Shown: positions 3,279 to 10,256 of the stretch, one piece after another | How the letters are laid out: each line of letters starts with the position of its first letter | Position numbering within the stretch: position 1 is the stretch's first letter | DNA from: Victivallales bacterium | GTDB taxonomy: Bacteria; Verrucomicrobiota; Lentisphaeria; Victivallales; UBA1829 | Direction of reading: 5' to 3' | Assembly (NCBI GenBank): GCA_016285335.1 | Contig: JAEEQO010000090.1 | Coordinates: 1-10,784, forward strand | Length of the DNA stretch: 10,784 nt | Notes under the pieces: generated by a model | The model's input: only the letters and a program-made list of their open reading frames with translations | The model's database searches: none | What the model was told of the DNA's origin: nothing | Position numbers and translations under genes: made by a program

Positions 3279-3426
3279 GTGCCCGAGCGTAGCCGGGCAC
3301 TGTTTCAGCACACTCCGTGTGTGCCCGAGCGTAGCCGGGCACTGTTTCAGCACACTCCGTGTGTGCCCGAGCGTAGCCGGGCACTGTTTCAGCACACTCC
3401 GTGTGTGCCCGAGCGTAGCCGGGCAC
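3279..3426. repeat. 42-bp tandem hairpin array, 3 full units plus a partial fourth
   Basis: Units begin at 3279, 3321, 3363 and 3405, with an exact 42-bp period and, by eye, identical sequence over the three full units. Each unit contains two hairpins: GTGCCCG-N8-CGGGCAC (for example 3279-3300) and CACAC-TCC-GTGTG (for example 3309-3321). The fourth copy has only the first hairpin and then diverges into another small hairpin (3424-3436). The array starts about 30 bp after the xylB stop. It lies in the 3' region of the xylB transcript, so it may stabilise the mRNA 3' end, aid termination or bind a protein. It resembles REP/BIME-type arrays in layout, but I do not recognise the family. Confidence 0.9.
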
Positions 3427-3453
3427 TGCCGCAGTGCAGGTATTTGCCTGCGG

Positions 3454-7562: not shown

Positions 7563-7590
7563 TTGATTTTCATCAAAGAAAGGGTATAGT
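7563..7590 (+). promoter_or_regulatory. Sigma70-type promoter of the structured RNA / Sel1-gene leader
   Basis: TTGATT (7563-7568), 16-nt spacer, TATAGT (7585-7590); the predicted start is near 7597. The -35 matches 4 of 6 and the -10 matches 5 of 6 consensus bases. It lies immediately upstream of the first hairpin of the structured RNA, which supports a transcript beginning there on the plus strand. Confidence 0.6.
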
Positions 7591-7596
7591 GTTGAT

Positions 7597-7832
7597 TGGA
7601 ATTGATTTCCGCATAGCCGGAAACTCAATTTCATGCTCATTTCATCGGTTATTTCAGCAAAAGATGATGAAAACCGGCCAAGTTTGATATTAGCTCTTTT
7701 GCTCTTAGGATTGAAATACCAGCACAGGAAGATTGTGTCTTCGTGTCTTGCTGGGCGTTTTTCTGTCGTCCTAAGAGCAGGTTCTTGGCCGGACCTTCAT
7801 CATCGCGTATGGGGAAGCGTCCGGCTTTTTTT
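7597..7832 (+). ncRNA. Structured RNA of unknown class: ncRNA or attenuator-type leader
   Basis: A 5' hairpin comes first: AATTGA-TTTCCG (7600-7611) pairs with CGGAAA-C-TCAATT (7618-7630). Then nested helices enclose 7663-7804: P1 GATGATGAA (7663-7671) with TTCATCATC (7796-7804); P2 CCGGCCAAG (7674-7682) with CTTGGCCGG (7784-7792); P3 GCTCTTAGGA (7701-7710) with TCCTAAGAGC (7769-7778); and an apical hairpin, CCAGCA (7719-7724) with TGCTGG (7749-7754) plus GAAGA/TCTTC (7728-7742). Between P2 and P3 is an asymmetric bubble of 18 nt against 5 nt. Almost 30 perfect long-range pairs are hard to explain by chance. The terminator at 7788-7832 reuses the 3' strands of P1 and P2, so the two folds exclude one another. 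The outline, a long rod with a central bubble, distantly recalls 6S RNA, but I do not recognise 6S or any riboswitch core. The Sel1-repeat gene starts 133 nt after the U-run. Confidence 0.7.
7788..7832 (+). terminator. Intrinsic terminator that competes with the upstream RNA fold
   Basis: GCCGGAC-CTTC (7788-7798) pairs with GAAG-C-GTCCGGC (7814-7825), an 11-bp stem with one bulged C and a 15-nt loop, directly followed by seven Ts (7826-7832). Its 5' arm is the same DNA that forms the 3' strands of helices P2 (7784-7792) and P1 (7796-7804). Folding of P1/P2 should block termination, and termination should require their opening. This is typical of transcription attenuators and riboswitch expression platforms, but a simple 3' end of an ncRNA gene is also possible. 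Confidence 0.75.
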
Positions 7833-7890: not shown

Positions 7891-7965
7891 TGTAATATCA
7901 AGCTTAAACAATATCAGATTTTTTATTTCAATCTAACGAACCAAACCATATTTGGAGGAAACAGT

Positions 7966-9537
7966 ATGAAGAAATATCTTTTCGGAAAAACTCTGGCAGT
8001 CATGCTTTGCTTCCTGACTCTGTTAATGGGAATGCCGATGCAGTTTTTTGCACAGACTTCCACGCTGCAAACGCGAAAGGATACTGCCACCGATTTTAAC
8101 AATTTTATCTCGTCCTGCACTCTAGAAGAGCGTATCCTTTTGATGCAAGCATTAGGGGGATTGGACGATGAGGATTTGGAAGACAGTTACTTCGGTTCTC
8201 TCAAGGGACTTGATCCTCTTAGCAGCTATGCAAAAAAGAAGAAAGATGCAAGTGCGACAAAACCGTTAAAGCCGGAAACTTTTAATGATGTTGCACCGGA
8301 AACAGTTATAGATGCGATTGCAAAGGATTATTTGAAAACGGACATTGTTTCAAGAGAAAAAATATGTAAAGAGTTAAGAGGCAAAATACATTTTTCCGGA
8401 ATCCATTTGTTCTACAGCTCGGATAATATAGACTACCATGAAGATGTCGTTCAATGGGTAGCAGGAAAACACGATATAGAAAAAACCCAAATAAAAACAC
8501 TCAGCACATTCGAACTGGAACGTAAAATCGTTGAAATGTACTTTGCGGAGATTTGGGATCAATTAACGGAAGAACAAAGAAAAGAACTTCTTTCAAAAAT
8601 AGAAAGCGAAACAAACTCTATTTTTACCAATAAAGCTGCAATAGCTGGAATGACTGGGGCAGCAGCCATTGGTGCGTTGAGTACCACTGTAGCGTTTACA
8701 GGTTTTGCTTTTTATACTACAATGTCAACCGTTATTGCGACGGTAGGTGCCTGGGTGGGCGTAACCCTTCCTTTTGTCGTTTATACGACATCTTCCTCAG
8801 CTGTGTCTGCTTTGGCCGGACCTCCCGGCTGGATCATTGCGGGTGTCCTCTTGGCTGCAGGAACCGGAGTCGCTTTGTGCTGGCCGGAATCTGACCCGGT
8901 AACAAAGTTTGTCATGGTCGTTCATTCCATAAAAGTATCCCGTTTGAAATCATTCGATTTGGAAAAAAGCTCGTCTGGGCAAAACAACCAGTACAATCAG
9001 AGCAGTTCAAGCTCATATGGGCAAAACAATCAGTACGGGCAGAACATGTACGGGCAACCATATATGCAAAACTATCCGAACTATATGCAACCGCAGTTCC
9101 AGTTCAACATGGGAAATGGATATAATGCCGCAAGGAATGAGGCAGCAGCATTGACCCGGGCCGCAACACAAGGCAATGTGGAAGCTATGCTCAATCTCGG
9201 ATATTGTTATTATTACGGTCAAGGCGTAGCACAAAGTTATTCTAACGCCATCACATGTTGGGCTCAGGCGGCACAACGAGGCAGCACGGAAGCACAATAT
9301 ATCCTCGGGAAATGCTATTATAATGGGGATGCAGTGAGCCGGAATTATACCGAAGCAGTACGTTATTTCCAAATGGCCGCCAATCAGGGACACACGGAAG
9401 CGCAGTCCGCTCTGGGCGTCTGCTACTACTATGGCCAAGGAGTGACCAGAAACATGTATGAAGCAAGACGGTGGCTCAGCATGGCGGCGAACAAAGGAGA
9501 TGCGATTGCACGTCAATACCTGAACAGTATTCGCTAA
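7966..9537 (+). CDS. Exported YaaW/UPF0174-like protein with C-terminal Sel1 repeats
   Basis: 523 residues. Residues 1-29 look like a Sec signal peptide (MKK, hydrophobic core, FFA/Q cleavage site). Residues about 41-300 resemble UPF0174/YaaW (DUF3944-type) proteins: a short helical start (NFISSCTLEERILLMQAL), KICKELRGKIHFSGI, and LAGPPGWIIAGVLL (283-296). Hydrophobic, Gly/Ala-rich segments at about 222-306 could be transmembrane. Then follows a Q/N/Y/S-rich low-complexity linker (about 334-385). Three and a half Sel1 repeats of 36 residues start at 399, 435, 471 and 507, with the pattern A-x-x-G-x-x-E-A-x-x-x-L-G-x-x-Y-Y-x-G. The ATG has GGAGG 7 nt upstream. The gene is clearly AT-rich (30-37% GC in two sampled 60-base lines of the first half). 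Sel1 repeats usually mediate protein binding. The YaaW assignment is from remembered motifs and less certain than the Sel1 part; the function is unknown. Confidence 0.75.
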   Translation: MKKYLFGKTLAVMLCFLTLLMGMPMQFFAQTSTLQTRKDTATDFNNFISSCTLEERILLMQALGGLDDEDLEDSYFGSLKGLDPLSSYAKKKKDASATKPLKPETFNDVAPETVIDAIAKDYLKTDIVSREKICKELRGKIHFSGIHLFYSSDNIDYHEDVVQWVAGKHDIEKTQIKTLSTFELERKIVEMYFAEIWDQLTEEQRKELLSKIESETNSIFTNKAAIAGMTGAAAIGALSTTVAFTGFAFYTTMSTVIATVGAWVGVTLPFVVYTTSSSAVSALAGPPGWIIAGVLLAAGTGVALCWPESDPVTKFVMVVHSIKVSRLKSFDLEKSSSGQNNQYNQSSSSSYGQNNQYGQNMYGQPYMQNYPNYMQPQFQFNMGNGYNAARNEAAALTRAATQGNVEAMLNLGYCYYYGQGVAQSYSNAITCWAQAAQRGSTEAQYILGKCYYNGDAVSRNYTEAVRYFQMAANQGHTEAQSALGVCYYYGQGVTRNMYEARRWLSMAANKGDAIARQYLNSIR

Positions 9538-9785: not shown

Positions 9786-10256
9786 TCAGTGCGGGATATA
9801 CAGGTAAAAGACCCACTCGATGACGTCGCGGACATCGCTCACGTCGTCGAACGAGTAGATCGGGAACCCGTTGCCGTTTCCGTTCGGGTAGAACAGGACC
9901 ATCCGGCCGCGCTTCTCGAAATACCATTCCGGCATGCCGTTGCCGTTGCCGTTCGGATAGACTTCGACGGCGTTCGAGCCGCGGAACTTGAAGTAGAAGG
10001 TCGGCATGCCGTTGCCGTTCCCGTTCGGGTAAAACTCGACGCCCCGGCTGCCGTATTTGAAGTAGTTGTACGGCATGCCGTTCAGCCCTGGCTGGGCGTA
10101 GACTTCGGTGCAGCGGTCCGTCTTCCGCATGGACCACTCGTGGATGCCGTTGCAGTTCCCGTTGTTGTACATCTTGCGCATGGTGCCGCTGATCTCCATG
10201 CTGGCGAACGGGAAGCCGTTGCAGTTTCCGTTTTTGTAAGCTTTGATGTAAGCCAT
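9786..10256 (-). CDS. Small protein of six 23-24-residue Y-x-N-G-N-x-N-G repeats, unknown function
   Basis: 156 residues with no signal peptide or membrane segment. Six repeats begin at Tyr 7, 30, 53, 76, 100 and 123, each patterned Y-x-N-G-N-x-N-G-(M/F)-P-x-x-Y-F-x-x-x-G-x-x-V-E-F. The three copies from residue 76 on are the most regular (YPNGNGNG). Alternating aromatics with NG turns suggests a stack of beta hairpins. The 23-residue period and N-G/G spacing recall MORN-type repeats, but the sequence is not a clear MORN match. The Asn in place of Asp argues against calcium-binding TSP3-like repeats. The ATG at 10256 has AAGGAG 8 nt upstream, inside the end of the upstream kinase-like gene, whose stop is only 5 nt away, so the two form an operon. 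I do not recognise the family. Confidence 0.8.
   Translation of the reverse strand: MAYIKAYKNGNCNGFPFASMEISGTMRKMYNNGNCNGIHEWSMRKTDRCTEVYAQPGLNGMPYNYFKYGSRGVEFYPNGNGNGMPTFYFKFRGSNAVEVYPNGNGNGMPEWYFEKRGRMVLFYPNGNGNGFPIYSFDDVSDVRDVIEWVFYLYIPH

Follow-up and report, generated by a model that had tools for sequence, protein, structure and literature searches.

A 10,784-nucleotide stretch of DNA (the window) was found to contain, at positions 7597 to 7832, a structured RNA of a family that recurs ahead of unrelated accessory genes. This RNA is probably (at a rough probability of 0.68) a cis-acting leader that controls whether transcription proceeds into the gene behind it and is common to a regulon of accessory genes. 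Such a reading, drawn from sequence comparison, accounts best for the linkage of the RNA to the strand of the downstream gene, the promoter-like sites, the terminators, and the overlapping helices. The computed support comprises the structure, the family and its distribution, strand linkage, the diversity of the cargo, and the enrichment of promoter- and terminator-like sites. The features of the window copy are listed in Table 1.

Table 1. Features of the RNA in the window and of the gene behind it.
Feature	Position	Strand	Basis or remark
Sigma70-like promoter, TTGATT-16-TATAGT	7563..7590	+	9/12 matches to consensus
5' hairpin P0	7597..7633	+	Fold
Conserved strand, 3' end TTTCAGCAAAA	7641..7662	+	Contains, in its 3' part (7656-7663), the first arm of candidate helix A:A'
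P1, 5' strand	7663..7671	+	Partner 7796-7804
P2, 5' strand	7674..7682	+	Partner 7784-7792
A:A', second arm	7696..7703	+	Shares 7701-7703 with P3; covariation in 49 copies
P3 (7701-7710/7769-7778), enclosing the apical domain	7701..7778	+	
Apical helix P4 (7719-7724/7749-7754) and loop	7719..7754	+	
P2 3' strand (7784-7792) and P1 3' strand (7796-7804)	7784..7804	+	Covariation
Terminator T1, hairpin at about 7786-7825, then seven T (7826-7832)	7786..7832	+	Constrained folding
Downstream gene, 523-aa protein with Sel1 repeats	7966..9537	+	ORF; Pfam Sel1, E = 8e-31

A preliminary description of the window had proposed a promoter, a 5' hairpin, three nested long-range helices with an apical hairpin, and a strong terminator competing with the core. 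A promoter-like site was found at 7563-7590. The predicted fold of 7597-7832 (-87 kcal/mol, z = -5.5) was matched in stability by none of 200 shuffled sequences, and contained the 5' hairpin, nested P1, P2 and P3, and the apical hairpin. The 5' hairpin P0 was likewise strong in the window's group of copies, in which 50 of 51 reached -6 kcal/mol or lower, but not clearly above shuffled sequences in the divergent copies (35/61 versus 28/61). Within the conserved strand that precedes P1, TTTCAGCAA was conserved at 90% or more over 111 copies. The core's TTAGGATTGAAATA (7697-7718) is complementary to TATTTCAATCTAA (7924-7945), immediately 5' of the Sel1 ribosome-binding site, at 77% over 22 nt, possibly by chance.

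Covariation was analyzed in two alignments. Sixty regions were fetched, in which BLAST found 57 copies besides the window, giving 58 copies; three regions (L168 to L170) gave no BLAST match, the RNA in one of them being obtained later by model as L187. Alignment A1 retained 49 of the 58 copies after omission of truncated or degenerate copies (L149, L154, L159, L163, and L166) and of near-copies (L127 of L126, L150 of L148), and transfer of L165 and L167 to alignment A2. The latter comprised 63 more diverse copies (60 further copies, the window, L165, and L167). The structure tested consisted of 34 pairs in P1 to P4. In A1, 95.5% of the cells were paired versus 77.0% in shuffled alignments, both partners had changed in 22 of the 34 pairs, and the score for covariation was 0.518 versus 0.164. 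When the partner strand was displaced by one to three columns, pairing fell to 30-45%, although the structure had been drawn with the A1 sequences in view and was hence favoured over the slid versions. In A2, which was fitted to the structure, 97.0% of the cells were paired (70.8% if shuffled), with both-side changes in 25 of the 34 pairs and a score of 0.701 versus 0.184. Among individual helices of the 49 copies, P1 had both-side changes in all nine pairs, P2 in four of nine with 98.6% of the cells paired, and P3 in 8 of 10, rising to 10 of 10 in the 63 copies; pairing in P4 was 98.0% and 98.9% in the two sets, respectively. The last pair of P3 (7710/7769) was formed in just 21 of the 49 copies. 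Compensatory changes in homologues, which the preliminary description had named as a test, are thus present in helices P1 to P4. These results indicate that the fold is a genuine, conserved RNA structure.

Several helices that would compete with the core were considered. The 5' arm of T1 overlaps the 3' strands of P2 and P1, and in constrained folding of 7641-7828, P1/P2 was more stable than T1, by a mean of 11.9 kcal/mol over the copies and by 4.6 kcal/mol in the window copy. A candidate early helix, A:A' (7656-7663/7696-7703), was paired in 95.9% of the cells of the 49 copies versus 90.7% after shuffling, with a covariation score of 0.154 versus 0.058. The bases at 7657, 7702 and 7777 were G, C and G, respectively, in 35 of the 49 copies, U, A and U in nine more, and G, U and A in another four, patterns that fit the expectation if 7702 swaps partner between A:A' and P3. 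In A2, 7657 is invariant and the central pairs alone hold, and inspection by eye showed the helix to be disrupted in some copies of the subgroup L242 to L260. A:A' was therefore treated as a lead only, and its absence from part of the family counts against the gate. A second competition proposed earlier, between TTTCATC and GATGAAA, was not conserved: all six of the pairs tested, out of seven, were formed in 2 of the 49 copies. A pseudoknot of TATTTC with GAAATA was also dropped, pairing being about one third at three of its six positions in the divergent set.

The strong terminator of the preliminary description was supported in the window by constrained folding of the hairpin and by the run of T, but it was not listed by a simple consensus terminator scan of the window. 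In the window's group, the T1 hairpin was more stable than in shuffled sequences (mean -13.9 versus -8.6 kcal/mol), and 49 of 51 copies were at -8 kcal/mol or lower, versus 58% of shuffles. Divergent copies had no stronger hairpin than their shuffles (mean -8.7 versus -8.2 kcal/mol; 34/61 at -8 or lower versus 54%), these energies covering 61 of 62 copies, with one omitted as having no recognisable T run. The U tract was similar in both sets, with a mean of 7.0 (window's group) and 6.8 (divergent) T in the first eight bases. Covariation of the T1 stem was weak at most (82.6% versus 81.8% paired in shuffles; score of 0.090 versus 0.078), and mismatches occurred at 7790/7823 in 23 of 49 copies and at 7792/7821 in 10. 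The reason is that the 5' arm follows P2, whereas the 3' arm, GUCCGGC, hardly varies within the window's group. For the proposed competition between terminator and core, the overlap of strands and the energies fit in the window's group; the at most weak covariation of the T1 stem and the shuffle-like T1 hairpins of the divergent copies count against the gate.

A second terminator-like hairpin was present at most 330 nt beyond T1 in 45 of 110 copies, whereas 12 of 105 stretches within genes and 6 of 110 shuffled sequences had one. In some of these 45 copies the hairpin lies within the downstream gene. This is the case for the window, whose sole listed hairpin is inside the Sel1 ORF; the lack of a second terminator ahead of the gene is a further point against gating in this copy. 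In 32 copies, pairing between the stretch that follows T1 and the 5' arm of the second terminator had a mean of -12.1, versus -9.1 (sd 0.4) for shuffles, none of 200 being as good, and -9.8 for an upstream control. Divergent loci such as L187, L192, L194, L198, and L227 have a common stretch near GCTGGATTTCGCAG 3' of T1, which is able to base-pair with the 5' arm of that terminator and is an antiterminator candidate.

The twelve nearest relatives of the SerA protein encoded in the window are 93-96% identical and come from rumen assemblies. Homology of their loci to the window stops at about 7211 (7222 in one), directly upstream of serA; the RNA therefore has no fixed place beside serA, and its assignment to a conserved serA neighbourhood was rejected. 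When 21 genomes harboring the SerA loci were searched with the DNA, each of the 13 close genomes was strongly matched, most of them several times, and the matches covered the RNA and not the Sel1 gene. The genome of Victivallis vadensis was also matched (E = 1.6e-7); the other seven gave chance-level matches only. In the nearest genus, model R1 detected the RNA in every one of the 13 genomes, which contain the copies used to train it, with two to eight matches per genome in 12 and one in the remaining genome. Copies within one genome were diverged from each other. Across the class, presumably Lentisphaeria, 74 of 197 genomes were positive with R1 (E ≤ 0.01) and 85 with R2, a model built from A2 (E ≤ 0.001). 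Of 387 genomes sampled across the phylum, 53 were positive with R1 and 60 with R2, and the sole genome with a hit that was not on the class list (G333) gave a weak match (32 bits, E = 5e-4). In the subgroup L242 to L260, the RNA is about 190-200 nt long, and in many copies ACGGCAAAT replaces CAGCAAAA and another common stretch, CTATTCACTGAAGAC...TTGTCCTTTGAATTTCTTTGC, lies 3' of T1; unrelated genes again follow.

Linkage of the RNA to the gene behind it was assessed by taking the longest ORF starting at most 700 nt downstream in 113 copies with flanks. This ORF was on the same strand in 95 copies and on the opposite strand in 7 (none in 2, flank too short in 9), i.e. 95/102 on the same strand, with a nominal p of 8e-21 for copies that are related and not independent. 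Two of the seven opposite-strand cases (L137 and L160) have a long adhesin-type ORF there on the strand of the RNA. The upstream neighbour was on the same strand in 57 copies and on the opposite strand in 43 (none in 6, too short in 7), with a nominal p of 0.19 for 57/100 copies, again not independent. In a further set of 20 copies, the downstream ORF was on the same strand in 15 and on the opposite strand in 1 (15/16); 2 copies had no such ORF, and the flank was too short in the other 2. Promoter-like sites, defined as at least 9 of 12 matches and searched from 130 to 20 nt before the core, were found in 22 of 51 copies of the window's group versus 3 of 49 control stretches, and in 43 of 61 divergent copies versus 3 of 59.

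The genes behind the RNA had no common family and no single metabolic theme in a Pfam scan of 48 selected proteins, some of which are not encoded by the first gene behind the RNA; 10 were also scanned with a defence library. Twelve of the 48 had no match of any kind and others sub-threshold matches only. The cargo includes an AIDA-type adhesin (L116, in a similarity cluster covering 11 loci) and Sel1, TM2/zinc-ribbon, PD40/PEGA, T2SSG-like, trypsin-like, and caspase/LRR proteins. Polysaccharide genes encode a NusG-like protein and an epimerase (L114), MBOAT (L111), EamA and GNAT (L133), glycosyltransferases (L201 and L218), and a UDP-GlcNAc epimerase (L218). Restriction-type proteins (Eco57I and ResIII in L142, GmrSD in L190, PD-(D/E)XK in L118) and a sigma-70 region 2 protein (L230) were also found. 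The lack of a common function that would name a signal counts against the gate. Downstream DNA was poorer in GC than the 1.5 kb upstream, both in the window's group (45.5% versus 57.3%; lower in 41/46) and in the divergent set (44.1% versus 50.9%; lower in 37/44). Occurrence of the same RNA ahead of many unrelated AT-rich accessory genes would define a regulon.

Other repeats and ORFs were noted in the flanking DNA. A (GCAA)n repeat of 5 to 23 copies lies about 150-220 nt 3' of the core in 6 of 116 loci (L167, L178, L191, L193, L195, and L202), within or close to a small ORF that is similar among them (MRMITATTAF...), and several contigs stop there; this ORF looks phase-variable. Repeats of 4-7 nt with at least four copies were absent from 887 kb of other flanking DNA. 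In the window, a perfect tandem array (3279-3428; period 42, 3.6 copies) separates dnaK from a carbohydrate-kinase gene, and a minus-strand ORF at 9786-10256 encodes a protein of 156 aa that lacks a Pfam match and contains repeats of the motifs NGNGNGMP/NGNCNG; it is possibly MORN-like.

A gate of the following kind would be consistent with these data. Transcription would start near 7597 and produce P0, then a core of about 190 nt. P1/P2, which is favoured, would be expected to form first; with the core closed in this way, the 5' arm of T1 would be consumed and the polymerase would read into the Sel1 gene. If something recognised by the conserved loops, a ligand or a protein, kept P1/P2 open or opened it, T1 would form and transcription would stop near 7832. 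Since P1/P2 is very stable, the default should be ON, and the trigger of the OFF state is a postulate. The ON/OFF logic is our inference.

The main rival to a gating leader is processive antitermination, in which the RNA would bind its own RNA polymerase, which would then ignore T1, T2, and later terminators. Folded RNAs act in this way on their polymerase in the case of the lambdoid put RNAs and the EAR element, and accessory, AT-rich, surface, and polysaccharide genes are typical targets of processive antitermination systems. The cargo found here is of that description, tandem terminators occur in some copies, the conserved fold is large and close to the promoter, and one operon (L114) starts with a NusG-like gene. 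However, T1 is built from strands of the core, which points to local attenuation, many operons appear short, and a literature search on EAR showed no close parallel. A NusG paralogue was rejected as a general partner: more than one PF02357 match was found in 2 of 13 genomes of the genus (three in G010, two in G012), one in nine, and none in two (G001 and G007, perhaps through assembly loss), in a count that highly divergent paralogues may escape and that incomplete assemblies may lower. We regard processive antitermination as unlikely, if the most serious competitor of the gate.

The promoter-like and terminator-like sites that flank the RNA, and its highly conserved loops, would also suit a separate trans-acting regulatory RNA of about 235 nt, for which the genes behind would be mere neighbours. 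This is rather less likely still, given the strand linkage to the downstream gene (95/102) and the presence of several diverged copies per genome. Least probable, in our judgement, is a mobile or exchangeable cassette in which promoter, RNA, and cargo travel together, the RNA serving as its end or as a recombination anchor. Some loci have upstream genes in common and different downstream genes (L126/L127; L114/L122/L157), and, in scans run without a control, inverted repeats bracketed RNA and cargo in 12 of 51 loci, including the window, and direct repeats were found in 6 of 51. However, the compensatory changes in P1 to P3 need selection on RNA pairing, and phage and plasmid records gave no match. 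A phage or plasmid origin was thus discarded; four viral contigs that matched the motif had no model hit. The inverted repeat of the window (7437-7463/9677-9703) is 27 nt long and 89% complementary, and brackets the promoter, the RNA, and the Sel1 gene.

No Rfam family matched the RNA in the comparison that had been suggested at the outset: at E up to 10, the window had chance-level matches only in Rfam 15, all of them outside the RNA, and at E up to 1, ten other RNA-bearing loci had tRNAs and one sub-threshold hit only. We found no description of this RNA in the literature; a 2017 list of 224 candidate RNAs was outside the scope of the search, and a search of PMC8040213 for Lentisphaerae, Victivallis, or rumen gave nothing. 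The preliminary description had left open a riboswitch, an attenuator, or a non-coding RNA. Covariation, the Rfam result, and the same-strand genes bear out a new structured leader, for which attenuator is the label that fits best; the RNA may also be a riboswitch. An attenuating leader is a known kind of device, and it is the RNA itself that is absent from Rfam 15. We know of no RNA of this identity, size, and spread over unrelated accessory genes.

Such size, strong covariation, multiple copies, and class-wide range are rare for an RNA not yet in Rfam. Given the unrelated accessory cargo, one signal or one polymerase-modifying RNA could jointly control adhesion, capsule, and defence in little-studied bacteria of the gut and rumen. 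The analysis provides a search model and a cultured carrier, Victivallis vadensis.

Several known RNAs resemble this one in part. 6S RNA, the nearest generic alternative named in the preliminary description, is about 200 nt long and has long-range helices around a bubble, as here; unlike 6S RNA, the present family has several copies per genome, linked to downstream genes, and no Rfam match, so a 6S-like identity is disfavoured. The put RNAs are lambdoid and EAR comes from Bacillus eps operons; like the present RNA, they are structured elements that lie close to the promoter in accessory or polysaccharide operons and are followed by terminators, whereas here Rfam gave no match and T1 takes strands from the core. 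Acido-Lenti-1 RNA (RF01687), a structured RNA of Acidobacteria and Lentisphaerae and hence of the same bacterial group, is classed as not cis-regulatory in PMC2864571, and was absent from the Rfam matches of the window and of the ten other RNA loci. Similar in architecture are the crcB and pfl motifs, leaders whose predicted terminator overlaps a conserved core (PMC2864571). Both there and here, a conserved 5'-leader fold is overlapped by a predicted terminator, so that a stabilised fold should raise expression; unlike these leaders, the RNA of the window had no sequence or model match and its cargo has no metabolic theme.

A further analogy is provided by regulons of NusG paralogues. RfaH/LoaP/UpxY-type proteins act through one signal common to AT-rich surface and polysaccharide operons. 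The present family would likewise place one regulatory signal over such operons, but the common element is a large RNA, and 9 of the 13 genomes have one NusG match. We tentatively raise the possibility, which we do not regard as the likelier outcome, that a single type of large RNA gate presides over many accessory surface, polysaccharide, and defence genes of one class, sensing one cell-wide signal or making the polymerase ignore terminators; such an arrangement would correspond to the RfaH regulon at the RNA level, the leader being conserved while the cargo behind it is exchanged.
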